A stretch of 34,086 bases of DNA from an uncultured Alphaproteobacteria bacterium. GTDB taxonomy: Bacteria > Pseudomonadota > Alphaproteobacteria > HIMB59 > GCA-002718135. Positions within the stretch are counted from its first letter, which is position 1; every line of letters starts with the position of its first letter. Positions 224 to 33,922 of the stretch are shown piece by piece. The position numbers and the translations under genes are program-made. The DNA is taken from contig CACHLW010000012.1 of NCBI GenBank assembly GCA_902580765.1, positions 1-34,086 on the forward strand, given 5' to 3'. The notes beneath the pieces were generated by a model. That model saw nothing but the letters and a program-made list of their open reading frames with translations, was not told the origin of the DNA and searched no databases.

Positions 224-297
224 GCGGGTGTAGCTTAGTGGTAAAGCTCCAGCCTTCCAAGCTGGCTACGAGGGTTCGATTCCCTTCACCCGCTCCA
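224..297 (+). tRNA. tRNA-Gly (anticodon TCC)
   Basis: The acceptor stem pairs GCGGGTG (224-230) with CACCCGC (287-293), the discriminator is T294, and CCA is encoded at 295-297. The anticodon loop CTTCCAA (254-260) carries TCC at 256-258 and reads GGA/GGG. The T-arm GGGTTCGATTCCC is canonical. It lies 57 bp after tRNA-Tyr and 27 bp before tuf, so processing of this tRNA would help form the tuf mRNA 5' end. Confidence 0.97.
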
Positions 298-324
298 TAA
301 CAAAATATTATTGGGGTAAAAAAA

Positions 325-1515
325 ATGGCTAAAGCAAAATTCGAAAGAAACAAACCGCATTGTAACATAGGAACTGTTGGTCACGTTGACCATGGTAAAA
401 CAACATTAACCGCTGCTATAACAAAAATATTAGCAGAGTCAGGCGGAGCAGAGTTTACTGATTACGCAAACATAGACAAAGCACCTGAAGAAAGAGAACG
501 TGGTATTACAATTTCTACTGCACATGTAGAATATGAAACTGAAGCAAGACATTATGCTCATGTAGATTGTCCTGGACACGCTGATTATGTTAAGAATATG
601 ATTACCGGTGCAGCTCAAATGGATGGCGGTATCTTAGTTGTTAACGCAGCTGATGGGCCAATGCCTCAAACAAGAGAACATATACTTTTAGCTAGACAGG
701 TAGGTGTACCTGCTCTCGTAGTATATATGAACAAAGTTGATCAAGTAGATGACAAAGAACTAATTGATCTAGTTGAAATGGAAATTAGAGAACTTCTAAC
801 ATCATATGAATTCCCTGGTGATACTATCCCAATCATTAAGGGTTCAGCTTTAGCAGCTCTTGAAGGTAGAGACGATGAAATTGGAAAAAATTCAATTATG
901 GAATTAATGAAAGCAGTTGATGAACATATACCACAACCTAGCCGACCTGTAGATCAACCTTTCTTAATGCCAGTTGAGGATGTATTTTCAATTTCTGGTA
1001 GAGGTACAGTTGTAACTGGAAGAATTGAGCAAGGTCAAGTTAAAGTTGGAGAAGAAATTGAAATCTTAGGAATAAGAGATCCTCAAAAAACTACTTGTAC
1101 TGGAGTTGAAATGTTTAGAAAACTTCTAGATTCTGGTGAGGCTGGAGACAACGTTGGTGTTCTTCTTCGTGGTACAAAAAGAGAAGAAGTAGAGCGTGGT
1201 CAAGTATTAGCAAAACCTGGTTCAATTAAACCTCATACAAAATTTAAAGCAGAAGCATATGTATTAAAAAAAGAAGAAGGTGGAAGACATACCCCATTCT
1301 TTTCAAATTACAGACCTCAATTCTACTTTAGAACAACTGATGTAACTGGAACAATTAAATTACCAGAAGGAACTGAAATGGTAATGCCTGGTGATAATAT
1401 TGCTATGGAAGTTACTCTTCTATCTCCAATTGCAATGGACAAGGGTCTAAAATTTGCAATTAGAGAAGGTGGAAGAACAGTTGGTGCTGGAGTTGTTGCT
1501 GAAATTATTGAATAG
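325..1515 (+). CDS. tuf: Translation elongation factor Tu
   Basis: EF-Tu is the GTPase that delivers aminoacyl-tRNA to the ribosomal A site. The 396 residues are full length. GTP-binding motifs are GHVDHGKT at 19-26, DCPGH at 81-85 and NKVD at 136-139, followed by beta-barrel domains 2 and 3. The ATG is preceded by GGGG about eight bases upstream. The gene sits between tRNA-Gly and tRNA-Trp, directly ahead of secE-nusG. No copy occurs at the usual second site between fusA and rpsJ, so this may be the only tuf gene in the genome; that is an inference from this window. Confidence 0.98.
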
Positions 1516-1550
1516 TTTTAGAGACCGCTCTATCTGTTAGCCAATACTTT

Positions 1551-1626
1551 AGGAGTGTAGCTCAACTGGTAGAGCACCGGTCTCCAAAACCGGGGGCTGC
1601 GGGTTCAAGTCCTGCCACTCCTGCCA
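1551..1626 (+). tRNA. tRNA-Trp (anticodon CCA)
   Basis: The acceptor stem pairs AGGAGTG (1551-1557) with CACTCCT (1616-1622), the discriminator is G1623, and CCA is encoded at 1624-1626. The anticodon stem CCGGT/ACCGG (1577-1581, 1589-1593) encloses CTCCAAA with anticodon CCA at 1584-1586. The tuf-trnW-secE-nusG order is a widely conserved proteobacterial arrangement. Only 14 bp separate it from secE. Confidence 0.97.
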
Positions 1627-1640
1627 AACGAAATGAAAAT

Positions 1641-1856
1641 ATGAATATTGAAAAAAAGAAAACATCACCAGCCCTTTTTGTAAGACAAGTAAGGCAAGAA
1701 TTACAAAAAGTTACATGGCCTCAAAGAAGAGACACGTTTATTTCTTCAGCAATAGTAATATTATTGATAATATTATTTTCTTTATTTTTTCTCTTAACTG
1801 ATCAAATTTGGTCTTTTTCAATAAAAAAAATAATTGAAATTGGAGCTGGATTTTAA
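1641..1856 (+). CDS. secE: Preprotein translocase subunit SecE
   Basis: SecE is the small essential subunit that clamps SecY in the SecYEG protein-export channel of the inner membrane. The protein has 71 residues. An amphipathic N-terminal part carries the family motif VRQELQKVTWPQR (17-29), followed by one hydrophobic membrane helix at about 35-53. This is the short single-helix form common in alphaproteobacteria, unlike the three-helix E. coli protein. Its stop overlaps the nusG start as TAATG, which suggests translational coupling. Confidence 0.95.
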   Translation: MNIEKKKTSPALFVRQVRQELQKVTWPQRRDTFISSAIVILLIILFSLFFLLTDQIWSFSIKKIIEIGAGF

Positions 1857-2389
1857 TGAATAAAGCAAGATGGTACGTTCTTCACGCCTACTCCGGTTAT
1901 GAAAAAAAAGTTGCTGACAGTATTTTAGATCAAGCAACAAAACTTGGTATTAAAGAACATATTGAAGAAATATCTGTTCCAGTTCAAAACATCACTGAAG
2001 TTAAAAGAGGTGTTAGGGTTAATACAGAAAGAAAAATTTTTCCTGGATATATTCTTATTAAAATGAATTTAAATGATGATACATGGCATATAATTAAAAC
2101 AACACCAAAACTAAGTGGATTTTTGGGTAATAAAGGTCAACCAGTACCAATAAGTAATGCTGAAGCAAAAAGAATCTCTGAACAAGTTATTGATGGTGTA
2201 GAAAAATCTAGACCAGCAATTATGTATGATGTTGGTGAGCAAGTAAAAGTAATTGATGGACCTTTTGCTTCATTTAATGGAGAGGTCGAACAAATTGATG
2301 AAGATAAAGCAAGACTAAGAGTAGCTGTTTCAATTTTTGGAAGATCAACACCTGTTGATTTAGAATACTCTCAGGTAGAAAAGGTATAA
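1856..2389 (+). CDS. nusG: Transcription termination/antitermination protein NusG
   Basis: NusG binds the RNA polymerase clamp, suppresses pausing and links polymerase to Rho or to ribosomal protein S10. The protein has 177 residues. The N-terminal NGN domain opens with RWYVLHAYSGYEKKV (5-19) and includes FPGYILIKM (62-70). A C-terminal KOW domain covers about 125-175, with VKVIDGPFASFNG. The length is normal for the family. The start overlaps the secE stop by one base and rplK follows after 3 bp. Confidence 0.97.
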   Translation: MNKARWYVLHAYSGYEKKVADSILDQATKLGIKEHIEEISVPVQNITEVKRGVRVNTERKIFPGYILIKMNLNDDTWHIIKTTPKLSGFLGNKGQPVPISNAEAKRISEQVIDGVEKSRPAIMYDVGEQVKVIDGPFASFNGEVEQIDEDKARLRVAVSIFGRSTPVDLEYSQVEKV

Positions 2390-2392
2390 ATT

Positions 2393-2821
2393 ATGGCTAA
2401 AGAAATTTTAGGATTAATAAAATTACAAATTCCTGCAGGTGGGGCAAATCCTTCACCTCCCGTCGGTCCAGCATTAGGACAAAGAGGGCTCAACATCATG
2501 GATTTTTGTAAGGCATTTAATGATAAAACTAAAGATTTAGAAAAAGGTGCCCCAATTCCAGTTATTATAACAGCATACAAAGATAGAAGTTTTGATTTTA
2601 CTACAAAATTACCACCAGTAAGTTATTATTTAAAAAAAGCAGCTAAAATAAAAAAAGGAAATTCAACCCCAGGTAGAACACTAGTAGGAAAAGTTTCAAT
2701 TCAAGATATAGAAAAAATTGCAAAAGAAAAAATGCAAGATTTAAATGCTATTGATTTAAATGGAGCAATGAACATGGTTAAAGGATCTGCCGTTTCAATG
2801 GGTATGGAGGTAGTAGGTTAA
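2393..2821 (+). CDS. rplK: 50S ribosomal protein L11
   Basis: L11 binds the GTPase-associated region of 23S rRNA and forms the base of the stalk where translation factors act. The protein has 142 residues. The proline-rich N-terminal signature [19 protein letters not shown] (14-32) is the family hallmark. The C-terminal rRNA-binding domain contains [16 protein letters not shown]. The start follows nusG by 3 bp, and the stop overlaps rplA as TAATG, so L11 and L1 are probably made from one coupled message. Confidence 0.97.
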
Positions 2822-3510
2822 TGAAAATGACAAAAAATAGAAAGCAAATGTTAAATAATTTTGACACTTCAAAGGTTTATGAGCCGCTAGAAGCAATCAA
2901 AATTTTAAAAGAAAAATCATATGTAAAGTTTGAAGAAACAATTGATATTTCAATTAATCTTGGAATTGACAGTAACAAAACTGATCAAAATATTAAAGGT
3001 GTTGTGAATCTTCCTAATGGAACAGGAAAAACTGTAAAGGTTGCAGTAATTGCAAATGAGGATAAACAAAACGATGCAAAAAATAATGGCGCAGACTTGG
3101 TAGGAAGTGATGATTTAATTGAAACAATTTCTAAATCAAAAATAGAATTTGATATTCTAATTGCTACTCCAGATATGATGTCTAAGTTAGGTAAAGTAGC
3201 AAAAATACTTGGTCCTAAAGGATTAATGCCAAATCCTAAGCTTGGTACTGTAACAAATGAAATTTCTCAATCAGTAAAAGACGCTAAATCAGGTCAAGTC
3301 AAATTTAAAAATGATAAATCTGGTATCGTTCACGCTGGTGTTGGCAAACTAGATTTTAGCGAAGAAGATTTGTTAGAAAATATTAAAACATTTTATTCTT
3401 CAGTTAGTAAAAGTAAACCTGATGCTGTTAAGGGTTCTTTTATAAAAAAGGTTACCATAGCTTCAACTATGGGAGTTGGATTAAATATTAATCAAGCTAG
3501 CTTGCGTTAA
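2821..3510 (+). CDS. rplA: 50S ribosomal protein L1
   Basis: L1 forms the mobile L1 stalk that releases E-site tRNA. In many bacteria it also represses its own operon by binding the mRNA. The 229 residues match the usual length. The signature GPKGLMPNPKLGTVT begins at 131, and the protein starts [10 protein letters not shown]. The last codons form the perfect palindrome CAAGCTAGCTTG (3493-3504). A 183-bp gap with the L10 leader follows. Confidence 0.97.
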   Translation: MKMTKNRKQMLNNFDTSKVYEPLEAIKILKEKSYVKFEETIDISINLGIDSNKTDQNIKGVVNLPNGTGKTVKVAVIANEDKQNDAKNNGADLVGSDDLIETISKSKIEFDILIATPDMMSKLGKVAKILGPKGLMPNPKLGTVTNEISQSVKDAKSGQVKFKNDKSGIVHAGVGKLDFSEEDLLENIKTFYSSVSKSKPDAVKGSFIKKVTIASTMGVGLNINQASLR

Positions 3511-3521
3511 TTAATCCAATA

Positions 3522-3538
3522 GATGATCTTTGATCATC
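3522..3538 (+). other. Short perfect hairpin after rplA
   Basis: GATGATC (3522-3528) pairs with GATCATC (3532-3538) around a TTT loop. It lies 12 bp after the rplA stop and just ahead of the L10 leader. There is no following T-run, so it is more likely a 3'-end or RNA-processing structure than an intrinsic terminator. Confidence 0.4.
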
Positions 3539-3540
3539 AC

Positions 3541-3616
3541 CTGTCAAAGACTGCAGGAGCTTTTAGCTTAATTTCCTGCATAGACTGAAGCGAGTCATTG
3601 ATTTGCTTCTTGACAG
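3541..3616 (+). ncRNA. Ribosomal protein L10 leader (autoregulatory mRNA structure)
   Basis: This is the mRNA site where the L10-L7/L12 complex binds to repress rplJ-rplL translation. The closing stem is CTGTCAA (3541-3547) with TTGACAG (3610-3616). The core helix is GCAGGA (3553-3558) with TCCTGC (3574-3579). The flanks AAGACTGCAGGAGC and TTAATTTCCTGCATAGAC match the conserved bulged, kink-turn-like elements of the E. coli rplJ leader. It lies 78 bases ahead of rplJ. The match is by eye to the known family. Confidence 0.88.
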
Positions 3617-3621
3617 GCTTT

Positions 3622-3648
3622 AAATTAGTTTGGTGGGCAAACTAATTT
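3622..3648 (+). promoter_or_regulatory. 11-bp hairpin between the L10 leader and rplJ
   Basis: AAATTAGTTTG (3622-3632) pairs perfectly with CAAACTAATTT (3638-3648) around a GTGGG loop. Only a short T-tract (TTTTA) overlaps its 3' end, so it is a weak intrinsic terminator at best. Its place between the leader and the rplJ ribosome-binding site suggests an attenuator or a structure that responds to L10 binding. That role is inferred. Confidence 0.5.
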
Positions 3649-3693
3649 TAGCTAATATTGGATCTTTAGGATTCAATTAAAACCGAGGTTGAC

Positions 3694-4215
3694 GTGAAAC
3701 GTTCTGAAAAAAAAGATTTTGTAAGTAATCTCAAAGAAGACTTTTCAAATGCTACTTCTGTAATTGTGGCAGAATATTCTGGGCTAACAGTTAATGAAAC
3801 AGAGCAACTCAGAAAAGAAATGAGAGATAATGGAGCAAAATTTAAAGTAACTAAGAACAGACTCACTAAACTTGCTATATCTGAAACTCATTTTAAAGAT
3901 ATTTCAGAACTTTTCAAAGGTCCAACAGCGATTGCTTATTCTGATGATGCAGTAGCACCAGCAAAAGTAGCTGTTAGTTTTGAGAAAAAATTTGAAAAGT
4001 TTAAAATTATTGGCGGAGGTTATAACGGAGAGAAAATTGATAAAGAAAGAATTGATTTTCTTGCAAAATTACCTTCTTTAGATGAATTAAGAGGAAAAAT
4101 AATAGGATTAATTTCTGCACCTGCTCAAAAGATAGCTTCAATTACAGCTGAACCTGGCGCACAAGTTGCAAGATTAATTAGTTCTAACAGTAGCAATAAA
4201 CAAGAGTCGAACTAG
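3694..4215 (+). CDS. rplJ: 50S ribosomal protein L10
   Basis: L10 anchors dimers of L7/L12 on the ribosomal stalk and, bound to them, represses its own mRNA. The protein has 173 residues. It starts MKRSEKKDFVSNLKEDF, contains GPTAIAYSDD in the middle, and ends in the helical L7/L12-binding tail. The start is GTG at 3694 with GAGG six bases upstream. No ATG in this frame fits the family N-terminus better. The L10 leader RNA precedes it and rplL follows after 18 bp. Confidence 0.96.
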   Translation: MKRSEKKDFVSNLKEDFSNATSVIVAEYSGLTVNETEQLRKEMRDNGAKFKVTKNRLTKLAISETHFKDISELFKGPTAIAYSDDAVAPAKVAVSFEKKFEKFKIIGGGYNGEKIDKERIDFLAKLPSLDELRGKIIGLISAPAQKIASITAEPGAQVARLISSNSSNKQESN

Positions 4216-4233
4216 GTAAATAAGGAGAAATAA

Positions 4234-4611
4234 ATGGCTGATTTGAATAAAATTGTTGAAGATCTATCTTCCCTTACAGTCCTTGAGGCAGCTGAATTAA
4301 GTAAAATGCTTGAAGAGAAATGGGGTGTTTCTGCAGCTGCTCCTGTGGCAGTCGCTGCAGCACCAGCAGCTGGTGGTGGAGAAGCTGCCGCTGAAGAGAA
4401 AACAGAATTTGATATTGAGTTATCTGAGTCTGGATCAAACAAAATAGCAGTTATTAAAGAAGTTAGAACCATTACTGGTCTAGGTCTGAAAGAGGCAAAA
4501 GATTTAGTAGAGGGCGCACCAAAACCACTAAAACAAGGGGTTAAGAAAGAAGAAGCTGAAGAAATGAAAAAATCATTAGAGGCAGCTGGTGCAAAAGTTA
4601 CACTGAAATAA
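4234..4611 (+). CDS. rplL: 50S ribosomal protein L7/L12
   Basis: L7/L12 is the multicopy stalk protein that recruits and stimulates the translational GTPases. The protein has 125 residues. A dimerisation domain covers 1-31, and an Ala/Gly-rich flexible hinge covers about 32-54. The globular C-terminal domain contains [20 protein letters not shown] strong AAGGAG ribosome-binding site lies eight bases before the ATG, consistent with a product needed in several copies per ribosome. A perfect hairpin follows immediately. Confidence 0.98.
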
Positions 4612-4638
4612 ATTGTAGGCCTTTAATAGGCCTACAAT
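4612..4638 (+). other. Perfect 10-bp hairpin between rplL and rpoB
   Basis: ATTGTAGGCC (4612-4621) pairs with GGCCTACAAT (4629-4638) around a TTTAATA loop, starting one base after the rplL stop. No T-run follows, so full termination is unlikely. In E. coli the same gap holds a partial attenuator and an RNase III site that lower rpoBC expression relative to rplJL. This hairpin is a good candidate for the same job by analogy. Confidence 0.65.
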
Positions 4639-4668
4639 ACTTAAATATGAATATACAAAGGAAGCAAA

Positions 4669-7600
4669 ATGAGTTTAGACCATATAAATCTTAAAAAAAT
4701 TAGAAAATCATTTGGTAAAATACCGTTAGTAACATCCTTACCAAATTTGGTTGAAGTTCAAAAAAGATCCTTTGATAATTTTTTACAACTTAGATCTGAC
4801 CCTGAAAAAAGAGAAAATACTGGACTACATTCAATTTTTAAATCTGTTTTTCCAATCCATGATTATGCTGAGAGAGCAACGGTTGACTATGTAAGTTATA
4901 ATCTTGGAGTCCCTAAATATGATGTTGAAGAGTGTTCTCAAAGAGGAATGACCTATGGCACTCCTCTCCTTGTAAATTTTAGATTAATTATTTGGGACAT
5001 TGATGAAATTGCAGGAACAAAATCAGTAAGAGACATAAAAGAACAAGAAGTTTATATGGGAGATATTCCTTTAATGACTAAAAATGCTACGTTTGTAGTA
5101 AACGGTACTGAAAGAGTTGTTGTAAGTCAAATGCATCGATCACCTGGAGTTTTTTTTGACCATGACTTTGGAAAGACTCACACAAGTGGCAAATACTTAT
5201 TTAATGCAAGAATTATTCCTTACAGAGGTTCATGGTTAGATTTTGAACATGATGCTAAAAATAATATTCATGCAAGAATCGATAGAAAAAGAAAATTCCC
5301 AGTTACTACTTTATTCAAATGTCTTTTAAGTGAACAATCTGAAAAATACATCAATGAATGTGAATCAAATAAAATAGAACCTGATTCAAAAAAAATTCTT
5401 GGAATGACTGGTGAAGAAATTCTTTCGTTATTCTATGATAATGTACAATACAAAAAAAATGAATTTGGTTGGTCTTTCAAGCAAGAACTAAGCTTCTTTA
5501 AAGGAAAAATTTTAAATTTTGATATTTTAGATTCTAAAAATGGTAAAATAATTTTAACTAAAGGTACCAAAGTTAATCAAAAAAAAATCAATGATTTAAA
5601 AAAGAAAAATTTATCTAACTTGACTATAAATGAAGAGTCACTTTTAGGTTTTTTCTTATCATCAGATATAATTGATGAAAAAACAGGAAAAATATTTTTT
5701 GAAGCAGGTTATGAAATTGATGAAATATTTATAGAGTTTTTGAAACAAAATAAAATAAACAGATTAGATATTCTTAAATCTGACAATATCGAAATTGGTT
5801 CTTACATTAGAAATACATTACAGTTAGACAAAGCTCGTTCTAGGGAAGAGGCTCTTTTTGAAATATTCAAAATTCTTAGACCAGGGGAGCCACCTACTAT
5901 AGAAACTGCAGAAAATCTTTTTAATAATCTTTTTTTTAACGCTGACAGATATGATTTGTCGTCAGTAGGAAGACTTAAGATTAATGCAAAATTTAAAAAA
6001 ACGACAGATATTGATCAAAGAATTTTAGACAAAAGTGACATATTAGATGTTGTAAATCATATGCATAATCTAATTGACGGAAAGGGCGAGATTGATGACA
6101 TCGATCATTTAGCAAATAGAAGAGTTAGATCTGTTGGAGAGTTGCTAGAAAATCAATATCGAATTGGTTTATTAAAAATGGATAGAGCAATAAAGGAAAG
6201 GTTAAGTTCTTTAGAAGTTGATAATATAATGCCGCAGGATATTGTTAATGCAAAACCTGTTGTTGCTTCGATTAAGGAATTTTTTGGACTAAGTCAGTTG
6301 AGTCAGTTTATGGATCAAACAAATCCACTAAGTGAAATAACTCATAAAAGAAGAGTTTCAGCACTTGGACCAGGGGGATTAAATAGAGAAAGAGCAGGTT
6401 TTGAAGTAAGGGATGTTCACCAAACACACTATGGAAGAATTTGTCCAATTGAAACACCTGAAGGAGCTAATATTGGACTCATAAATAGTTTAGCTTCATA
6501 TTCAAGAATAAATAAATATGGTTTCATTGAAACTCCATATAGAATAGTTAATTCTGGAAAAGTTACTGATAAAGTAATATATTTAAGTGCCATTGATGAA
6601 GAAGATTTTGTAATTGCACAAGCCAACGCAGAAATTGACTCAAAGGGTAAATTTTCAAACAGTATAGTTAGTTGCAGAAAAAATGGTGAATTTATAAATG
6701 TGGATATCGAAGCAATTGATTTAATGGATGTTTCTCCACAACAACTTGTTTCTGTTGCATCTTCCTTAATTCCTTTCTTGGAAAATGATGATGCGAATAG
6801 AGCATTGATGGGTTCAAATATGATGAGACAGGCAGTACCATTAATTAAACCAAAAGCACCACTAGTTGGTACTGGTATGGAATACACCGTAGCGAATGAT
6901 AGTGGCTCAACAATTGTTGCAAAAAGAGAAGGCATAGTAGATCAGCTTGATGCACAGAGAATAGTAATCAGAATTACTGATAAGAATGATAAATCTCTAA
7001 ACAAAATTGATATTTATAATCTTGCTAAGTTTCAGAGATCAAACCAAAACACTTGTATAACCCAAAGACCGCTTGTAAATGTAGGTGACAAGGTAAAGAA
7101 AAACCAAGTTATAGCTGATGGACCAGCTACAGATTTAGGAGAGCTTGCTTTAGGAAGAAATGTTCTCGCTGCTTTTATGCCTTGGAATGGATACAATTTT
7201 GAAGATTCAATTCTAATTTCGGAAAAAGTTGTACAAGATGATGTATTTACATCAATTCATGTTGAAGAATTTGAGGTTATGTCACGAGATACAAAACTTG
7301 GTCCTGAAGAAATAACTCGAGATATACCAAATGCCAGCGAGGAAATGTTAGTTAATTTAGATGAAACAGGAATAGTTTACGTTGGAGCTGAAGTTAATTC
7401 TGGAGATATATTAGTTGGAAAAGTTACTCCAAAGGGAGAGTCACCAATGACCCCAGAAGAAAAATTATTAAGAGCAATATTTGGAGAAAAAGCAGCAGAC
7501 GTTAAAGATACTAGTTTAAGGGTTCCTCCAGGGGTTAAAGGAACTATTGTTGAAATAAGAGTATTTTCAAGAAGGGGTATTGAAAAAGATGAAAGAGCCA

Positions 7601-8874
7601 TAAGTATTGAAAATAATCAAATTGAAGTAATAGCTCGAGACAGAGATGATGAATTAAAAATTCTTGAGAAAAGTTTTGGAAATCACCTAAGAGAATTACT
7701 AACAAATCAAATTTTTATTTCAGGCTATGAAGGTCTAAATAAAAATGCCGAAATTAAATTTGAAGATGTTGAGAAATTAAATTTAAGTGACTTACTTAAA
7801 ATAAATATTTCTGATGATAATAAAACTAATGAAATTGAAACGTTAGTGAAAAATTATGAAAATCAACTTGGAAATATTAATCAAAAATTTGAAAATAAAA
7901 TAGATAAGATTCAAAGTGGAGATGAATTATTGCCAGGCGTATTAAAACTTATAAAAGTTTTTATATCTGTCAAAAGAAAACTCCAACCTGGAGATAAAAT
8001 GGCAGGAAGACATGGAAATAAAGGTGTAATTTCTAAAATTTGCCCTGTTGAGGATATGCCATACCTAGAAGATGGTACTCCTGTTGATATTGTTTTAAAC
8101 CCCTTAGGAGTTCCAAGTAGAATGAATATAGGTCAAATATTGGAAACACATTTAGGTTGGGCTTCTGCTTCTTTGGGAAGACAAGTTAATGATATGATAA
8201 AAAATATTCAATCAGAAGGTCAAACTAAAAACTTAAAAAATAAACTTTTAGAAATTTATAATCTCGAAAAACATCAAAAAATTATCAAAAATATGAACGA
8301 TGATGAAATTTTAGAACTAGGTAATAATTTGAAAGAAGGCATTCCTTTTGCAACACCTGTATTTGATGGAGCAAAAGAAAAAGATATTACGAATTTGCTC
8401 TCTATATCAGGTGTTTCTAAAACTGGTCAAGAAATATTATATGACGGCGTAACTGGTCAAAAATTTGATAGACCTGTAACTGTGGGTTACATGTACATGC
8501 TTAAATTACATCATCTTGTGGACGAAAAAATACACGCTCGATCTATCGGTCCTTACAGCTTAGTTACTCAACAACCACTTGGTGGTAAGGCTCAATTTGG
8601 TGGTCAAAGATTTGGTGAGATGGAAGTGTGGGCTTTAGAAGCATATGGAGCTGCATATACCCTTCAAGAAATTCTTACAATTAAATCTGATGATGTAGCT
8701 GGTAGAACAAAAGTATATGAATCTATTGTAAAAGGAGATAACAATTTTGAATCAGGAACCCCTGAGTCTTTTAATGTAATGGTAAAAGAACTTAGATCTC
8801 TTGGTTTAAACTTAGATTTTAAGGAAAATGCTAAAGAAAATAATTTAACTAACTTAATAGGATCAAATGAATAA
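4669..8874 (+). CDS. rpoB: DNA-directed RNA polymerase subunit beta
   Basis: RpoB is one of the two large catalytic subunits of RNA polymerase and forms the rifampicin-binding pocket. The protein has 1401 residues, within the range for alphaproteobacteria. The rifampicin region [20 protein letters not shown] starts at 542. Residues aligning with E. coli Q513, D516, H526 and S531 are Q546, D549, H559 and S564, the usual sensitive types. The conserved [10 protein letters not shown] lies near 1110. Lys-rich, less conserved segments at about 280-375 and 1010-1080 mark lineage inserts. The ribosome-binding site is AAGGAAG, and the gene overlaps rpoC by 8 bp. Confidence 0.98.
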
Positions 8875-11800
8875 AGAACTTACAAATATTTTTAATCAGA
8901 ATCAAGGTGTACAAAATTTTAATAGTCTAAAGATTTCAATAGCCAGTCCTGATGATATAAGATCATGGTCTTTCGGTGAAATAAAAAAACCTGAGACAAT
9001 TAACTATCGTACTTTTAAACCAGAGAAAGACGGATTATTTTGTTCAAGGATTTTTGGTCCTGTAAAAGATTATGAATGTCTTTGTGGAAAATACAAAAGG
9101 ATGAAATTTAGAGGAATAATTTGTGAAAAATGTGGAGTAGAAGTTACACTTTCAAAAGTAAGAAGAGATAGAATGGGTCACATAGAGTTAGCAGCTCCTG
9201 TATCGCACATCTGGTTTATGAAATCTTTACCAAGTAGAATTGCGACTCTTTTAGACATGACAATTAAAAATCTTGAAAAAGTTTTATATTTCGAACAATT
9301 TATAGTTGTTGAACCAGGTTTAACAGACTTAAAAAAAGGCGAAATTATTTCTGAAGAGCAATTTATTGATTATCAAGATGAGTATGGTGAAGATTCTTTC
9401 AGCGCTGCAATTGGAGCTGAAGCAATCGAACAAATGTTATTGAGTATAGATTTAGACACAGAATATAATCAACTGAAAATTGATTTAACTGAGACTAAAT
9501 CAGAGTTAAAGAAAACTAAAATTACTAAACGATTAAAATTAATTGAGTCATTTATTTTATCAAAAAATAAACCAGAGTGGATGATATTAAGAGTACTACC
9601 TGTTATTCCACCAGAATTAAGACCTTTGGTTCCACTTGATGGAGGAAGATTTGCAACAAGTGACTTAAATGATTTATACAGAAGAGTAATTAATAGAAAT
9701 AATAGATTAAAGAGATTAATTGATCTCAGAGCCCCAGATATAATTATTAGGAATGAAAAAAGAATGCTTCAAGAGTCAGTTGATGCTCTATTTGACAACG
9801 GAAGAAGAGGAAGGGTAATAACCTCGACAAATAAAAGACCTCTAAAATCATTATCTGACATGTTAAAAGGTAAACAAGGAAGGTTCAGACAAAATCTTCT
9901 TGGTAAAAGAGTAGATTATTCTGGAAGATCTGTAATAGTAGTTGGTCCTAACTTAAAACTTCATCAATGTGGTATTCCCAAAAAAATGGCTCTCGAATTA
10001 TTCAAGCCATTTATTTTCCATAAACTTGATATTTATGGATGGGCTAACACAATTAAAGCTGCAAAAAAACTAGTTGAGAAAGAGGATCCCAGAGTCTGGG
10101 ATATTTTAGAAGAAGTAATTCGAGAACATCCTGTACTTTTAAATAGGGCACCCACATTACACAGACTTGGAATTCAAGCATTTGAACCAACTTTGATCGA
10201 AGGTAAATCCATACAACTACATCCTTTAGTTTGTACAGCATTCAATGCTGATTTTGATGGTGATCAAATGGCTGTACATGTACCACTTAGTCTTGAAGCA
10301 CAATTAGAAGCAAGAGTTCTAATGATGAGTACTAATAACATTTTGTCTCCTTCTAGTGGAAAGCCTATCATTGTGCCTTCACAAGATATAGTCCTCGGAA
10401 TTTATTATCTATCTATCATCAGGGAAAGTCAAAAAGGACAAGGAAGAATTTTCGTAGATTTAAATGAGATAGAAAAAGCTTTAGAGAATGGAGATGTAAG
10501 TCTTCACACAAAAATAAACGCAAGAATTAGAAATCATAATGATGAAAAGCAAATAGTTCAGACTACGCCAGGTAGAATGATATTAGGAGATATTCTTCCA
10601 AAAAACAAAAATATAAGTTTTGAAATGATTAATAAAATACTTACAAAAAAAGAAGTAAGTAATATCATTGACTCAGTCTATAGGTTTTGTGGTCAAAAAG
10701 AAACAGTACTATTTGCAGATCATATTATGCAAATAGGTTTTAAGTACGCAGCAATAGCTGGTATATCATTCGGAAAAGACGATTTAATTATACCGTCTGA
10801 TAAAGATAGTTTATTAAACGCAACTCAGCTTAAAGTTCAAGAATATGAAAATCAATATCAGGACGGCTTAATTACCCAAGGGGAAAAATACAATAAAGTT
10901 GTTGACGCATGGTCTGAATGTACAAACAAAGTTGCAGATAAAATGCTTGATGTTATTTCCAACCCTGCTGATGATGAACCAATAAATTCTGTTTATATGA
11001 TGGCTCATTCTGGTGCAAGAGGTTCTGCTGCACAACTAAAGCAATTATCAGGAATGAGAGGCCTTATGGCTAAACCTTCTGGCGAAATTATTGAAAATCC
11101 AATTAAATCCAATTTTAAAGAAGGCTTGTCTGTTTTAGAATATTTTACTTCAACACATGGAGCAAGAAAAGGACTTGCTGATACGGCATTAAAAACTGCA
11201 AGTAGTGGTTACCTAACTAGAAGACTTGTTGATGTTGCTCAAGACGCAGTGATTCGAGAAGAGGATTGCAACACAAAAAATGGAGTTATTGTTGAAGAAA
11301 TTGTAGAATCTGGAAACATTACTTCTCCATTAACAGAAAGAGTTTTAGGTAGAACTCCAGTTGAAGATATAATAGATGAAAACAATACTACTATAGTTAA
11401 GTCTGGAGAAATAATTTCTGAAAGCCACTTAGACCCTATTTCTAAACTTGGTATCAGATCTTTAAAAATAAGATCAGTTTTAACTTGTGAAACTGAAGAT
11501 GGTATTTGTTCAAAATGTTATGGTAGAGATCTTGCAAGGGGTACACCAGTAAATGTTGGTGAAGCAGTAGGCATAATTGCTGCTCAATCAATTGGAGAAC
11601 CAGGTACGCAGCTAACAATGCGTACTTTTCATATAGGAGGTGCGGCTAGTTCATCAGTGGAACAATCAAATGCTTCTTCACCAGTAGCGGGAAAAATCAA
11701 ATTTGAAAATATAAAAATTATAGAGGATCGTTTTAAAAACAAAATAGTTTTAAGTAGAAATGGTAAAATAAAAATTATTGATGAAAATATTGAAAAATAT

Positions 11801-27475: not shown

Positions 27476-28498
27476 GTGTTACAAAAAAATTGGAGTGAAT
27501 TAATTAAACCTACTAAGATGGAAGTCAATGTAGAAGAAAGTAATGGAAGAATAGGTAAACTAACTGCAGAACCACTAGAACGTGGATTTGGTCTAACGTT
27601 AGGTAATTCAATAAGAAGAATATTACTTTCATCATTACAAGGTGCAGCTATTACTTCAGTAAAAATAAAAGGTGTGGTTCATGAATTTTCAACAATACCT
27701 GGTGTTAAAGAAGATTTAACTGACATACTTTTAAACTTAAAATCTGTGGGAGTAAAAGTGCACTCTCCAGGACTAAAAAAAATGTATCTTAAATCAACTG
27801 GCTCAGGTGAGTTGAGAGCAGGAAATTTTGAAACAGATTCTGAAACTGAAATCATGAATCCCGATCAGTTGATCATGACTCTTGATACTAATGCAGACAT
27901 TGAAATTGAAGCAAATGTAGAGACTGGAAAGGGATATGTTTCTGCAGAGGTTGCTGAAGATGAAGATAAAATTATAGGAGAGATCAAATTGGATGCAATG
28001 TTTAGTCCTGTTGTTAAAGCATCATACAAAGTAGAAAATAGTAGGGTTGGACAAGTTACTGATTTTGATAAGTTAATTTTTGAAGTTGAAACCAATGGAG
28101 CAATTTCTCCAGATGATGCTATTGCTTTAGCAGCAAGAATTCTGCAAGACCAATTACAACCTTTTATTAATTTTGATGAACCTGAAGTATTACCTGATCA
28201 ATCTAATGTTGAAGCTTTATCTTTCAATTCAAATTTATTAAAAAAGGTTGAAGAGCTAGAGCTGTCAGTTAGATCAGCTAATTGTCTAAAAAATGATAAT
28301 ATTATCTACATTGGGGATCTAGTACAAAAATCTGAGTCTGAAATGTTAAGAACACCTAACTTTGGAAGAAAGTCTCTAAATGAAATTAAAGAGGTTCTTC
28401 AACAAATGGAGTTAAATTTAGGGATGTCCGTTCCTGATTGGCCACCCGAAAATATTGACGAATTAGCTAAGAAATATGAGGATCCTTTTAATAAATAA
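27476..28498 (+). CDS. rpoA: DNA-directed RNA polymerase subunit alpha
   Basis: RpoA dimerises to start polymerase assembly and contacts UP elements and activators. The protein has 340 residues. The N-terminal domain contains [20 protein letters not shown] (34-53). The C-terminal domain, about 255-315, has [12 protein letters not shown] and the helix-hairpin-helix segment. The start is GTG at 27476, preceded by AAAGGAG. It follows rpsK by 15 bp, and rplQ follows after 5 bp. Confidence 0.98.
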
Positions 28499-28503
28499 TT
28501 ATT

Positions 28504-28941
28504 ATGAAACATAATATAAAAAATAAAAAATTAAATAAAACTTCTTCTCATAGAAAAGCAATGTTTATGAATATGTCAAATGCACTTATTAAACATGAGC
28601 AGATTACAACTACTTTAGCAAAGGCAAAAGAACTTAGAAGATTTGTCGAAAAAATAGTAACATTGGGTAAAAAAGGTAGTTTGTTATCACGAAGAAAAAC
28701 TGTTTCTATTTTACAAGATCAAAAAATGTCAAAAAAAGTTTTTGATGTTCTTGCTGAAAGGTATAAGAATAGAGCTGGTGGTTACACTCGTATTATAAAA
28801 CTTGGAAACAGATTTGGTGATAATGCACCTACAGCGGTAATAGAATTTGTTGACAGAGATGAAAATGCTAAAGGACAAGACAGCGGCCCTGTTATTGAAA
28901 AAAAATCTACTGAAGAAGTAGAGCCACAACCTCAAATTTAG
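28504..28941 (+). CDS. rplQ: 50S ribosomal protein L17
   Basis: L17 lies near the tunnel exit. The protein has 145 residues. [40 protein letters not shown] and [18 protein letters not shown] are family signatures. A C-terminal acidic/polar tail of about 25 residues (from about 120) extends beyond the E. coli length, as in other alphaproteobacteria. It ends the ribosomal cluster; crcB starts 6 bp later, so the two are probably co-transcribed. Confidence 0.96.
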
Positions 28942-28947
28942 AAACTA

Positions 28948-29322
28948 TTGTTCAACATATTTTTTATAGCAACTGGTGGTGCAACAGGGGCTGTCTTGAG
29001 ATATATCTTAACCAGCTTCAGCAAAAATTTATTTACATCCAGTATCTACGGTACACTTTCTGTAAATATTTTAGGTTCTTTTTTAATTGGATATCTAATT
29101 ACCTCTGATTATGCAAAAAGTTTATCTGAAGATTTCGTAAAGTTTTTTTTAATAATTGGCTTACTTGGTTCCTTTACAACTTTTTCTGCCTTTTCTTATG
29201 AAGTAGTAAATTTAATAAATTCAAAAAAAATGTTTATATCTTTTTTTTATATCTTTATTTCAATTCTTATGTGCATCTTGTATTTGTTGAAGTGTAATCA
29301 ATTTAAACCCTATTTAATGTAA
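28948..29322 (+). CDS. crcB: Fluoride ion channel CrcB/Fluc
   Basis: CrcB (Fluc) exports fluoride as a dual-topology membrane dimer. The 124 residues suggest four hydrophobic helices. Signatures are GGATGAVLRY (10-19), NILGSFLIG (40-48) and GLLGSFTTFSAFSYE (71-85), which carries the pore phenylalanines and the central Na site region. The start is TTG at 28948 with no good ribosome-binding site. Residues 106-118, the end of helix 4, are encoded by one arm of a perfect 38-bp inverted repeat whose other arm is the start of the next gene. The natural C-terminus may therefore have been overwritten. No fluoride riboswitch is apparent upstream. Confidence 0.92.
   Translation: MFNIFFIATGGATGAVLRYILTSFSKNLFTSSIYGTLSVNILGSFLIGYLITSDYAKSLSEDFVKFFLIIGLLGSFTTFSAFSYEVVNLINSKKMFISFFYIFISILMCILYLLKCNQFKPYLM
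29264..29301 (+). repeat. 38-bp inverted repeat, left arm (inside crcB)
   Basis: These 38 bases are the exact reverse complement of 29395-29432 and begin TTCTTATGTGCATCTTG. Matching stops abruptly at both ends: 29263/29433 and 29302/29394 do not pair. The arm encodes CrcB residues 106-118. It is read directly from the sequence. Confidence 0.97.
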
Positions 29323-29332
29323 TTTAAATAGG
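29309..29332 (+). other. Hairpin across the crcB stop codon
   Basis: CCTATTTAA (29309-29317) pairs with TTAAATAGG (29324-29332) around TGTAAT. The crcB stop at 29320-29322 lies in the loop. The stem can be lengthened with one bulged C. It sits inside the 93-bp spacer of the 38-bp inverted repeat. No T-run follows, so a terminator role is uncertain. Confidence 0.5.
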
Positions 29333-29394
29333 TTACCAAAACCATCAATTTTTTGATTAATATTAGATAATCTTAATGAATCCCAAATAATAGC

Positions 29395-29432
29395 TTGATT
29401 ACACTTCAACAAATACAAGATGCACATAAGAA
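29395..29432 (+). repeat. 38-bp inverted repeat, right arm (start of eutB)
   Basis: This arm starts TTGATTACACTTCAAC exactly at the TTG start codon of the next gene and covers its first 12.7 codons. It is the exact reverse complement of 29264-29301, with a 93-bp spacer. In a read-through mRNA the eutB start would be buried in a 38-bp duplex. The encoded peptide fits the EutB family N-terminus, so this arm is probably the original and the crcB arm the copy. Confidence 0.97.
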
Positions 29433-30357
29433 AATTTTACCTTATGTTAATTATACACCATTAATTAATTCTAATTTCTTATCAAAAAATACTACAGTAA
29501 AACTAAAGTTAGAAAATTTTCAAATCACTGGTTCATTTAAGTTAAGAGGCGCTGTTAATAAACTTCTTTCTTTAAGTGAAGATGACAAAAACAAAGGAGT
29601 CATTGCAGTTTCTACAGGCAATCACGGCAAAGGTGTTGCTTATGCTTCAAAAGTATTAGGCATTCAATCAACAATATATATGTCTTCAATGGTACCAGAA
29701 TATAGAAAAGAGGCTATTGAAAAATTAGGAGCTAAAGTAGAAATTATTGGAAAGAATAGTGATGAAGCTGATTTGTATGCTAAACAAATTGCGAAAGAAA
29801 AAAATATCCCATTAATTCATCCTTTTGATGATGAAGATATTATAATAGGCCAAGGTACAGTTGGACTTGAAATGCTTACTGAATTTCCTGAAGTTGATAC
29901 AGTAATTATACCAACATCTGGTGGCGGTCTTATATCTGGAATTGCTCAGGCTATTAAACTTCAAAAACCTAACACAAAAATTATTGCCGTATCTATGGAA
30001 AGAGGCCCTTCAATGTATGAAAGTCTAAAAGAGGGTAAGCCTGTTGATGTAGAAGAAACTGAAACTTTAGCCGATTGTTTAGGAGGTAGTATTGGTTTAG
30101 ATAATAAATTTACATTTAATATTGTACAACAATACGTTGATGACTTTGTTTTAGTAAGTGAAGAAAAAATAGCTGAGGGAATTAGAATTAACTTTTTAGA
30201 ACATAAAATTGTATCTGAAGGTGCTGCAGCAACAAGTGTTATGGTTGTTAAAGAAAAATTAACATCGCACTTAGGAAAAAATATAATTTGTTTAATTTGT
30301 GGTGGAAATATTGACTCGGAACTATTTAATAAAGTTTTAAGCCATGCTCATCCTTAA
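29395..30357 (+). CDS. eutB: EutB/BhcB-type PLP-dependent hydroxy-amino-acid dehydratase
   Basis: This is a fold-type-II PLP enzyme of the serine/threonine dehydratase group. The protein has 320 residues. SFKLRGA places the Schiff-base lysine at K49. STGNHG (73-78) binds substrate, and TSGGGL (174-179) is the phosphate loop. VSMERGPSM and LADCLGGSIGLDN match the hydroxyectoine-utilisation EutB group rather than IlvA; that group also includes the beta-hydroxyaspartate dehydratase BhcB. It probably converts a 3-hydroxy amino acid to an imine for the next gene. The start is TTG at 29395; an in-frame TGA at 29377-29379 excludes a longer ATG start, and no ribosome-binding site is seen. It overlaps eutC by 14 bp. 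Confidence 0.87.
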   Translation: MITLQQIQDAHKKILPYVNYTPLINSNFLSKNTTVKLKLENFQITGSFKLRGAVNKLLSLSEDDKNKGVIAVSTGNHGKGVAYASKVLGIQSTIYMSSMVPEYRKEAIEKLGAKVEIIGKNSDEADLYAKQIAKEKNIPLIHPFDDEDIIIGQGTVGLEMLTEFPEVDTVIIPTSGGGLISGIAQAIKLQKPNTKIIAVSMERGPSMYESLKEGKPVDVEETETLADCLGGSIGLDNKFTFNIVQQYVDDFVLVSEEKIAEGIRINFLEHKIVSEGAAATSVMVVKEKLTSHLGKNIICLICGGNIDSELFNKVLSHAHP

Positions 30358-31318
30358 TAAAAATGATATTATTCAACATGTAAATTTGAATAAAAATCTC
30401 ATACCAATAATAGAGGAGGCTTTCATAAGTTTATCAAAGGGATTGGTAATGATGCCACCTATAATGAGAATTGATATTGAAAAATATCATGGTGAATCAG
30501 ATGTTAAAGCTGCATACGTTGAAGGTCTTGATAGTTTTGCAATAAAAATTGCCTCAGGTTTTTTTGATAATCCAAAACTTGGTTTGCCATCTAGTAATGG
30601 ACTGATGGTTTTATTAGATTCAAAGACTGGAGTTGTAAAATCTGTTTTATTAGATGAAGGTTATCTTACAGATACTAGAACAGCTATAGCAGGAGCAATA
30701 GCTACAAAATATTTATCAAATCAAAATGCTAATTCTGTTGGTATTATTGGGGCTGGAATTCAAGCCAAATTACAACTTCAAGCAATAATGTTAGTTAGAA
30801 AAATAAATAAAATTATAGTCTGGGCAAGAGATGAGACAAAAGTGAATCAATTTATAGAAAGTTTCAAAAATTTAGATATAGATTTGTATACAGCTTCTTC
30901 TTGCAAAGAATTGGCAAGCTTATCAGAAATAATTGTTACAACGACTCCTAGTAAAAAACCGCTTTTGGAATTTGATTGGATAAATAAAGGAACTCACATA
31001 ACAGCAATGGGATCAGATGCAGAACAAAAAAACGAATTAGATCCTCAGATGTTAAAACATTGTGATCAATATGTACCTGACAATCAATTACAAACAAGTG
31101 TTATGGGTGAATTACATCATGCTTTAAAACAAAATATAATTTCTTCCAAAGAAAAATTTAATGAACTCGGCGATATAATTAACGATCCAAGTTTAGGAAG
31201 AAAAAATAAAGAAGATATAACTATATGTGATTTGACAGGAACTGGTGTACAAGATACTGCAATAGCTAGATTTGCTTATAATCTTTGTAAAAAAAATAAT
31301 TTAGGCATCAATATTTAA
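30344..31318 (+). CDS. eutC: EutC/BhcD-type imine reductase (ornithine cyclodeaminase family)
   Basis: This NAD(P)H-dependent enzyme belongs to the ornithine cyclodeaminase/mu-crystallin family. The protein has 324 residues. The Rossmann motif GIIGAGIQA lies at 133-141. DNPKLGLPSSNG (75-86), YLTDTRTAIAGA (107-118), AMGSDAEQKNELD (221-233) and DLTGTGVQDTAIA match the EutC subgroup. Its relative BhcD is iminosuccinate reductase. Next to the dehydratase, the likely job is to reduce the imine product to an amino acid such as aspartate. The 14-bp overlap with eutB implies coupled translation. True ornithine cyclodeaminase activity is less likely. Confidence 0.87.
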   Translation: MLILNKNDIIQHVNLNKNLIPIIEEAFISLSKGLVMMPPIMRIDIEKYHGESDVKAAYVEGLDSFAIKIASGFFDNPKLGLPSSNGLMVLLDSKTGVVKSVLLDEGYLTDTRTAIAGAIATKYLSNQNANSVGIIGAGIQAKLQLQAIMLVRKINKIIVWARDETKVNQFIESFKNLDIDLYTASSCKELASLSEIIVTTTPSKKPLLEFDWINKGTHITAMGSDAEQKNELDPQMLKHCDQYVPDNQLQTSVMGELHHALKQNIISSKEKFNELGDIINDPSLGRKNKEDITICDLTGTGVQDTAIARFAYNLCKKNNLGINI

Positions 31319-31321
31319 TTT

Positions 31322-32764
31322 ATGAGTCAAGTAATAGTAAAAAAAACGTCTGATTATTTCAAATCAAAAGGAGTTGTCTTACCTAGTATAAGTGAACTTC
31401 AAGATCCTCAAATTATTAATGATGATATTAAAAATTCTCTAAAAAAAATAAATAATAATGATATCAATCCTCTTAACCTTTTTAGAGTTCATTGGTTTAA
31501 TAAAAGAGATCAATCAGGTTTTGGAAATGAGCCTGAATATATTGTGCTTCCAACAGAATTCACAGGTGTAAAGGCAAAGATAATTGTAAATATGGGACGA
31601 TATTTTCCCTTAATAACAGCTCATAAAGTTTTGGCAGCTTACGGTTGTTTGCTTCCAAGAATATTGAATGGCACTTTTGATTATGAAAAACATAAAGCGG
31701 TTTGGCCTTCTACAGGAAATTATTGTAGGGGTGGAGTGGCAATATCTCGGATAATGGGTCTTAATAGTATTGCAATACTTCCTGAAGGAATGAGTAATGA
31801 GAGATTTGAATGGTTGAATAATTGGGTTGAAGATAAAAAAAATATCATCAAGACAAAAGGCTCAGAAAGTAATGTTAAAGAAATATATGATGCTTGTAAT
31901 GAACTAAAAAAAAATAATCAAAATGATATAATAAATCAATTTGATGAGTATTATAATTACGGTATTCATCGTTCTGTAACTGGTCCATCGTTTGAAAAAT
32001 CATTTCTTAAAGTTAAAGGTAGCAGCAATTTAACTCCTAGGTTTTACGTAAGTGCTTCAGGATCTAGTGGTACTCTAGCAGCAGGAGATTATCTTAAAGA
32101 CAAATTACAGACTAAGATTGCAGTTGTTGAAGCTTTGGAGTGTCCAACATTGCTTCATGGAGGTTATGGTGAACATAATATACAAGGAATTGGTGATAAA
32201 CACATTCCCCTTATTCATAATGTAATGAATACAGATTTTGTCGTAGATGTTTCTGATCAAGCTACCAATAATTTAAATATGATTTTTAATACTGCAATTG
32301 GAAAAAATTTTTTAATTGAGAAAAAAAATTTTGACCCTGATTTTGTTTCTCGACTTCCTGAATTTGGTTTCTCAGCAATAGCAAATATATTAGCATCAAT
32401 AAAACTAGCTAAATATATGGATTTAAATAGTGATGACGCAATTATAACGGTTGCTACTGATGGTGCAGATTTATATATGTCAGAGTTAAACAAGACCATT
32501 GCTGATTTTAAAAATAATTATGATGAAATAGTTTGTGCTGAACTATTTGGAAAACACTTATCAGGAATATCTACTGATAATATGCTTGAACTCTCTCACA
32601 TCGATAAGAAAAGAATATTTAATTTAGGGTACTTTACTTGGGTAGAGCAACAAGGAGTTAGTCTTGAAGAATTTGAAAAAAGAAAAGATCAAAAATTTTG
32701 GAATTCACATTATGAATATATGCTTTCTCTAGACAATAAGATTAAAGAATTTAATAATATGTAG
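31322..32764 (+). CDS. Divergent fold-type-II PLP enzyme, unassigned function
   Basis: The 480 residues are longer than typical cysteine synthases (about 310). An N-terminal extension of about 75 residues precedes the PLP fold. Family-like elements appear in order: ITAHKVLAAYG, with K102 as the probable Schiff-base lysine; STGNYCRGG (130-138) at the substrate-loop position; SASGSSGTLAAG (244-255) as the phosphate-binding loop; and NIQGIGDKHIP (286-296), which resembles the cystathionine-synthase EGIGxxxIP segment. The usual SxKDR sequence is replaced by TAHK. The gene lies 3 bp after eutC and 3 bp before an M20 hydrolase, so it probably acts in the same pathway, perhaps as a lyase or beta-replacement enzyme. 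The substrate cannot be read from the sequence. Confidence 0.75.
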   Translation: MSQVIVKKTSDYFKSKGVVLPSISELQDPQIINDDIKNSLKKINNNDINPLNLFRVHWFNKRDQSGFGNEPEYIVLPTEFTGVKAKIIVNMGRYFPLITAHKVLAAYGCLLPRILNGTFDYEKHKAVWPSTGNYCRGGVAISRIMGLNSIAILPEGMSNERFEWLNNWVEDKKNIIKTKGSESNVKEIYDACNELKKNNQNDIINQFDEYYNYGIHRSVTGPSFEKSFLKVKGSSNLTPRFYVSASGSSGTLAAGDYLKDKLQTKIAVVEALECPTLLHGGYGEHNIQGIGDKHIPLIHNVMNTDFVVDVSDQATNNLNMIFNTAIGKNFLIEKKNFDPDFVSRLPEFGFSAIANILASIKLAKYMDLNSDDAIITVATDGADLYMSELNKTIADFKNNYDEIVCAELFGKHLSGISTDNMLELSHIDKKRIFNLGYFTWVEQQGVSLEEFEKRKDQKFWNSHYEYMLSLDNKIKEFNNM

Positions 32765-32767
32765 GTT

Positions 32768-33922
32768 ATGAAAACTCAGTCATTACATAACCAATTAGTA
32801 GAATGGCGTCATGATCTTCATATGCATCCACAATTAAGTTTTGAAGAAGAGTACGCTGCAGCAAAAGTATCAACACTTCTAAAAGAGTTTGGAATAGAAG
32901 TTCATTCTGGTATCGCCAGAACTGGAGTAGTTGGAATTTTAAAAAAAGGAAATAGTTCAAAATCAATAGGTATAAGAGCTGACATGGATGCTCTTCCTAT
33001 ACATGAAACTAATAAGTTTAGTTATAAGTCCAAGTTTGATAACAGAATGCATGCATGTGGACATGACGGTCACACAACAATGTTATTAGGTGCAGCAAAA
33101 TATTTATCAGAAAAAGGTAACTTTAACGGCACAGTATATTTTATTTTTCAACCTGATGAAGAAAATACTTTTGGTGCAAGAACAATGATAGATGAGGGCT
33201 TGTTTGATAAATTTAACATTGATGAAGTTTATGCTATGCACAATATTCCTAACATGGAAATTGGAACATTTGGTACTAGAAAAGGGGCAATCACAGCAAG
33301 TGAAAATTTATTCGAAATTGAAATAAAAGCCAAAGGTGGGCACGCTGCATTGCCTCATATGGGGGTAGATGCAATAACTGTTGGCTCTCAAATAGCAGTA
33401 GCACTTCAATCGATAGTCTCTAGGAAATTAAATCCTGCAGATAATGGTATAGTTTCTATTACTGAATTTATAACCGATGGTAAAAAAAACGTTCTGCCAG
33501 GTATGGTTAAAATGACTGGTGATGCAAGAGCTTTATCAAAAGAAACAAATGAAAAAATTGCTTCAAAAATGTTACAAATCGTCGAAGGCATTTGCAATGC
33601 ACATGGTGTTAGTGGTAGTGTTAAATATGAAACAGCCTGTCCTGTAACCTTTAATTCAAAAAACCAAACTGAGTCTGCAACAAAAGCTGCAGTTTCATTA
33701 CTTGGTAACGATAAATGTAATGGTGATATTGAACCACGTTTATTCTCAGAAGATTTTTCTGTTATGGCAAATGAAAAACCTGGCTGCTTTGTTTTAATGG
33801 GTAACGGCACATCAGAGCAGCATTCTAGACCTTTACATGCTGACAATTATGATTTTAATGACGAATTATTAGTCATAGGTTCTTCATATTGGATTGAATT
33901 GGTAGAACAACAATTAAAATAA
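32768..33922 (+). CDS. M20D-family metallo-amidohydrolase (HipO-like)
   Basis: The protein has 384 residues, normal for N-acyl-amino-acid amidohydrolases such as hippurate hydrolase and N-acetyl-diaminopimelate deacetylase. Likely dimetal ligands are C97 and H99 in HACGHDGH, the E131-E132 pair in QPDEE, H158 in AMHNIP and a C-terminal His in SRPLHAD. GGHAALPHMGVDAI belongs to the dimerisation domain. Having no signal peptide, it should act in the cytoplasm on an acylated amino acid. In ectoine pathways the deacetylase EutE/DoeB is of a different (aspartoacylase-like) family, so this could be a non-homologous stand-in; that is speculative. The M24 gene starts directly after its stop. Confidence 0.9.
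   Translation: MKTQSLHNQLVEWRHDLHMHPQLSFEEEYAAAKVSTLLKEFGIEVHSGIARTGVVGILKKGNSSKSIGIRADMDALPIHETNKFSYKSKFDNRMHACGHDGHTTMLLGAAKYLSEKGNFNGTVYFIFQPDEENTFGARTMIDEGLFDKFNIDEVYAMHNIPNMEIGTFGTRKGAITASENLFEIEIKAKGGHAALPHMGVDAITVGSQIAVALQSIVSRKLNPADNGIVSITEFITDGKKNVLPGMVKMTGDARALSKETNEKIASKMLQIVEGICNAHGVSGSVKYETACPVTFNSKNQTESATKAAVSLLGNDKCNGDIEPRLFSEDFSVMANEKPGCFVLMGNGTSEQHSRPLHADNYDFNDELLVIGSSYWIELVEQQLK

Follow-up and report, generated by a model that had tools for sequence, protein, structure and literature searches.

The perfect inverted repeat that joins the end of crcB to the start of eutB in the window (the whole stretch of DNA analyzed here, 34,086 nucleotides, which is contig C12 at full length) is best explained as a double strand-switch chimera of single-cell whole-genome amplification (MDA, with a phi29-type polymerase) that was carried into the contig, and we hold this explanation with high confidence. 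Most likely, then, the feature is not part of the biology of the organism, and there is no regulatory element to explain. The original prediction had left three options for the repeat, a recent mutation, a selected regulatory structure or an assembly artefact, and on present evidence the artefact is favored. The genome to which the window belongs is a draft of 1,122,540 bases in 50 contigs, with a completeness of 66%.

The repeat itself exists as first described, with two arms of 38 nt each (29264-29301 and 29395-29432) that are 100% complementary and are separated by 93 nt, and a match of this length is far above the chance level. A census of perfect inverted repeats of at least 20 nt with arm starts within 20 kb, covering 47 of the 50 contigs (C1-C47, of which C2, C7 and C9 were included short of their tails), returned two in 1,112,436 bases of the window's genome, namely the 38-nt crcB/eutB repeat and one of 24 nt on contig C3; the same census over 800 kb of the congener G077 returned one, with a length of 20 nt. 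Also, the right arm does open at the TTG start codon of eutB. This start is not peculiar to the window's genome, TTG being found at the same position in 90 of the 90 eutB loci of relatives that were compared. These loci comprise L005-L033 (29 loci) and 61 of those in L167-L231 (L167-L227), the count excluding four distant loci (L228-L231) and more diverged eutB matches; as genomes are often present twice, they amount to 61 distinct sequences. Read along the window, the junction is composed of the following pieces:

28948-29268, plus strand: genuine part of crcB, collinear with the crcB of relatives; its native 3' end is lost, the breakpoint lying somewhere in 29264-29276.
29264-29301, minus strand: left arm, the reverse complement of nucleotides 1-38 of eutB.
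29302-29394, minus strand: spacer, matching in reverse complement the 93 nt that natively precede eutB, made up of a 12-nt gap and the last 81 nt of eutA.
29395-29402, no strand assigned: TTGATTAC, the 8-nt homology at the fold-back join, where both homologous segments overlap exactly.
29395-29432, plus strand: right arm, the native start of eutB, identical in six of eight relatives.
29395-30357, plus strand: eutB-like gene, matching Pfam PALP; its top NCBIfam match is the hydroxyectoine utilization dehydratase EutB, below the cut-off of that family.

Alignment of the window to the corresponding intervals of eight congeners shows a match to crcB that runs to 29276-29286 and a match to eutB from 29395 on. 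The right arm is identical in G089, G039, G040, G037, G077 and G014, whereas G064 and G012 differ from it at one or two positions; eutB is the normal side of the junction, as had been supposed. On the opposite strand, the stretch 29264-29402 matches the native end of eutA together with nucleotides 1-38 of eutB, at 97.8-100% in all eight relatives, and the left arm does not correspond to native crcB, whose end is different in the eight relatives aligned. The idea of an inverted copy of the eutB start at the crcB end is therefore borne out, and template switching is a fair description of the route. However, the copy is not confined to 38 nt, since the arm and the spacer, plus 8 nt more, entered together as one flipped eutA/eutB piece of 139 nt. 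This piece includes the first 38 nt of eutB, which are repeated next in forward orientation, and hence a perfect inverted repeat is produced. A 38-nt copy slipped between adjoining crcB and eutB genes, within an otherwise intact junction as first pictured, is ruled out: the spacer shares the inversion, and crcB and eutB are not native neighbors, their native distance being ~10.3 kb. The CrcB C-terminus in the record (from about residue 106) and the crcB-eutB adjacency should be disregarded.

In congeners, the native order is crcB, about 10.3 kb, eutA and eutB, and 10,273-10,306 nt separate the crcB breakpoint from eutB in all eight intervals, which were chosen among the listed genomes having crcB and eutB on one contig. 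For example, at locus L034 (G089) crcB is followed by a gene for an RluA-family pseudouridine synthase (rluC for short, all of its NCBIfam matches being below the cut-offs), and the eutA-like ORF ends 12 nt before eutB. The eutA-eutB join is native in each of the 90 eutB loci, and none of these shows an exact inverted repeat of at least 14 nt when nucleotides 1-38 of eutB are compared with the 300 nt upstream (or less where the upstream sequence is shorter). The comparison with close relatives that the original prediction proposed accordingly finds the arm in 0 of 90 loci, with crcB and eutB not being neighbors in any of the eight intervals. A pattern search allowing up to 3 mismatches detected the fold-back join in one of 102 genomes of the genus, the window's own, and the same result was obtained for the crcB join; this last search is the weaker of the two, since crcB is divergent within the genus and the majority of the genomes are incomplete, and a diverged crcB join could escape it. 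The fold-back join also occurs in no record of the genome_contigs collection, which may leave out the window's genome. An element common to the relatives is rejected on these grounds.

The ~10 kb "missing" between crcB and eutB is present in the same genome as a separate contig, C21, which over its whole length of 9,697 bases matches positions 267-9963 of the 10,401-nt stretch of G089 at 97%. A comparison with 800 kb of G077 gives the collinear order C5, left part of C12, C21, right part of C12, C11 and C10. Among the 16 contigs (618,507 bases) of which more than half is aligned, C12 alone passes over a stretch present on another contig, and the remaining skips, of 1.0-2.9 kb, are present on no other contig; this test covers 16 of the 47 contigs, those more than half aligned to the 800 kb of G077, and the comparison was made without chaining. 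Contig C3 shows a strand flip that comes from a single 615-nt match, inside a stretch absent from G077 at that place, and contigs C1 and C4, most of whose length falls beyond the 800 kb, give scattered matches to G077. These were taken for probable paralogue matches. Neither the inverted-repeat census nor the G077 comparison of 16 contigs reveals a second clear chimera of such kind. An origin by amplification might have predicted more of them, and thus the single clear case is mildly against it.

The ends of C21 face the two breakpoints at different distances. One end lies 116 nt from the fold-back point, a distance that falls to 16 nt on the assumption of a 100-bp trim at this end. The other end lies ~340-360 nt from the crcB breakpoint, or 240-260 nt after undoing a 100-bp trim, and is therefore not at the breakpoint. 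The seven gaps between neighboring contigs measure 196, 219, 259, 261, 332, 931 and 4,656 nt, and the smallest of the 47 contigs has 2,339 bases. In a search with the G089 interval, neither the native crcB-rluC join nor the native eutA-eutB join was found on any contig of the window's genome, both of them falling in contig gaps.

Along the junction, the orientation changes from crcB (plus) to eutB/eutA (minus) and then to eutB (plus), so that both joins invert. The right join contains an exact 8-nt match, TTGATTAC at 29395-29402, common to the flipped piece and forward eutB; given that GTAATCAA is native 93 nt upstream of the eutB start, this 8-nt inverted repeat pre-existed. At the left join (29264-29276), the minus strand of eutB and the crcB of G089, G012 and G039 agree at 11 of 13 positions, the near-match being weaker in the crcB of the five more distant relatives; this homology is judged from the crcB of relatives, the genome's own native crcB end being absent from the assembly. 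The distance bridged is 93 nt at the fold-back join and about 10.3 kb at the crcB join. In the mechanism that we propose, a displaced 3' end would have primed again, on two occasions, on a displaced strand that lay nearby and had the opposite polarity, the re-priming sites being the 13-nt near-match of the crcB end with the eutB minus strand and the pair TTGATTAC/GTAATCAA. The window sequence passes from crcB into the flipped 139-nt eutA/eutB piece and, at the 8-nt homology, back to forward eutB. Hairpin self-priming as the sole mechanism is ruled out, because the sequence beyond 29432 is native eutB and not reverse-complement crcB, and hence priming by the 3' end must have taken place on a different copy.

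We infer that the source DNA probably came from an MDA-amplified single cell from the names of the relatives, the sizes of the contig gaps and the smallest contig. Isolate names of the AG- or AH- type are carried by 60 of the 61 close eutB loci (protein identity of 89-100%); the titles of 33 of the 61 relatives begin with "MAG:", and 32 of these also have AG- or AH- names. AG- names are used for the GORG-Tropics single amplified genomes (PMC11247762). In the single-cell workflow of the Bigelow center, as outlined in two reports, 100 bp are trimmed off each contig end and contigs under 2,000 bp are dropped (PMC5519541, PMC9771814). With such trimming, gaps of about 200 nt or slightly more are expected; five of the seven contig gaps (196-332 nt) and the smallest contig (2,339 bases) fit the 100-bp trimming and the rule of more than 2,000 bp.

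Among 475 chimeras of this amplification chemistry, obtained from a single E. coli cell, Lasken and Stockwell (2007) counted 406 inversions; of these, 337 joined segments less than 10 kb apart and 69 joined segments beyond 10 kb (PMC1855051). Complementarity of 2-21 nt was reported there for 76.8% of all 475 joins and, for inversions beyond 10 kb, for only 34.8%; the frequency was about one chimeric join per 22 kb of amplified DNA, and hairpins were argued against as a major route (PMC1855051). The junction in the window resembles the chimeras of that account in the inverted orientation at each join, in the short complementarity (8 nt exact at one join and a short near-match at the other) and in the origin of the segments from one genome neighborhood. 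As is expected of MDA chimeras, which independently amplified cells should not share, each join is found in one of 102 genomes (at up to 3 mismatches), with 90 of 90 loci native, and the complementarity falls in the range of 2-21 nt, the 11/13 near-match being judged from G089, G012 and G039. Nonetheless, differences are also observed with respect to the same source (PMC1855051). Here there are two joins, ~130 nt apart, which leave the orientation direct overall and form a short inverted repeat; the distance at the crcB join is slightly above 10 kb and outside the favored range, the fold-back of 93 nt being within it; and the chimera became contig sequence. A published benchmark of the single-cell workflow gives a mean of 1.5 misassemblies per 100 kb, from any cause (PMC11247762).

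Three other explanations have to be weighed against amplification. Short template-switch or microhomology-mediated rearrangements occur in living cells, and one of them could yield an identical sequence, with a local segment inserted in flipped orientation between two joins. A genuine event of this kind in the cell or in its recent ancestry, in which microhomology template switching moved the 10-kb interval and left the flipped 139-nt insert, is nevertheless improbable. The joins do have short homologies of the type that such events use, and the native joins are on no contig of the genome. On the other hand, a living-cell mutation is heritable and the 10-kb interval would be elsewhere or lost, whereas this interval is intact as one contig with its ends facing both breakpoints; had it moved, it should continue into other sequence. 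The rearrangement would also separate eutB from eutA and alter the end of CrcB. Moreover, a search of the genus (up to 3 mismatches) found neither join in the 101 remaining genomes, and the 90 loci are all native. The corresponding biological scenario, in which a recent microhomology rearrangement in one marine cell would have set a flipped eutA/eutB junction behind crcB, moved 10 kb, brought the catabolic genes behind the ribosomal-protein operon and created a 38-bp hairpin over the start of eutB, is even more improbable.

Still less probable is a mere misjoin by the assembler that does not go back to a chimeric molecule. A draft assembly of 50 contigs, at the misassembly rate of the published benchmark, could contain one, and de Bruijn assemblers work with words of 21 nt or more; the words shared at the joins (8 nt exact, 11 of 13 nt) are too short for such an assembler to connect them unless reads run across the joins.

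The weakest explanation, which we consider to have practically no chance, is a selected hairpin in a read-through mRNA, where a 38-bp duplex over the eutB start would lead to RNase III cleavage or to a block of translation. The fold of the mRNA, which had been proposed as a check, is indeed very stable (predicted -68.3 kcal/mol compared with -20.15 for shuffles, z = -14.12), but a stable fold comes with any perfect inverted repeat and says nothing on function. The hairpin is kept in 0 of 90 relatives' loci, neither join was found in the other 101 genomes, the genes are not neighbors in any of the eight intervals, and a search of 28400-30900 against Rfam gave 0 matches at the gathering threshold. 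The regulatory hairpin or RNase III site is rejected for this lack of conservation, and the earlier proposal that the duplex separates transcription of the ribosomal operon from that of the catabolic genes is left unsupported.

If the junction is an amplification chimera, its biological significance is probably none, and its use lies in caution. A perfect inverted repeat across genes that are non-adjacent in relatives, combined with a missing interval on a contig of its own, would serve as a chimera marker for single-cell genomes, and claims on gene neighborhood made across such a join are untrustworthy.

Regarding the other repeat of the census, the perfect 24-nt inverted repeat of C3 (G000:C3, 26255-26278 and 26969-26992, in L078 and outside the window) has 690 nt between its arms and sits in the part of C3 from about 16.7 to 31.9 kb, for which the 800 kb of G077 contain no long counterpart. 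A further chimera and a natural repeat are both possible origins.

Finally, the genes downstream of the junction (29395-33922) form a set that resembles those for ectoine or hydroxyectoine utilization. Neither the EutB-like protein nor the EutA-like protein encoded at L034 reaches its NCBIfam cut-offs, and the cyclodeaminase is above one of these (PRK08291) and below that of EutC; given these scores, the substrate assignments are uncertain. Also, a gene for a 480-aa protein (31322-32764), with below-cut-off similarity only, to PLP-dependent enzymes of the cysteine-synthase type, is placed between the cyclodeaminase-like gene and the M20 amidohydrolase gene.
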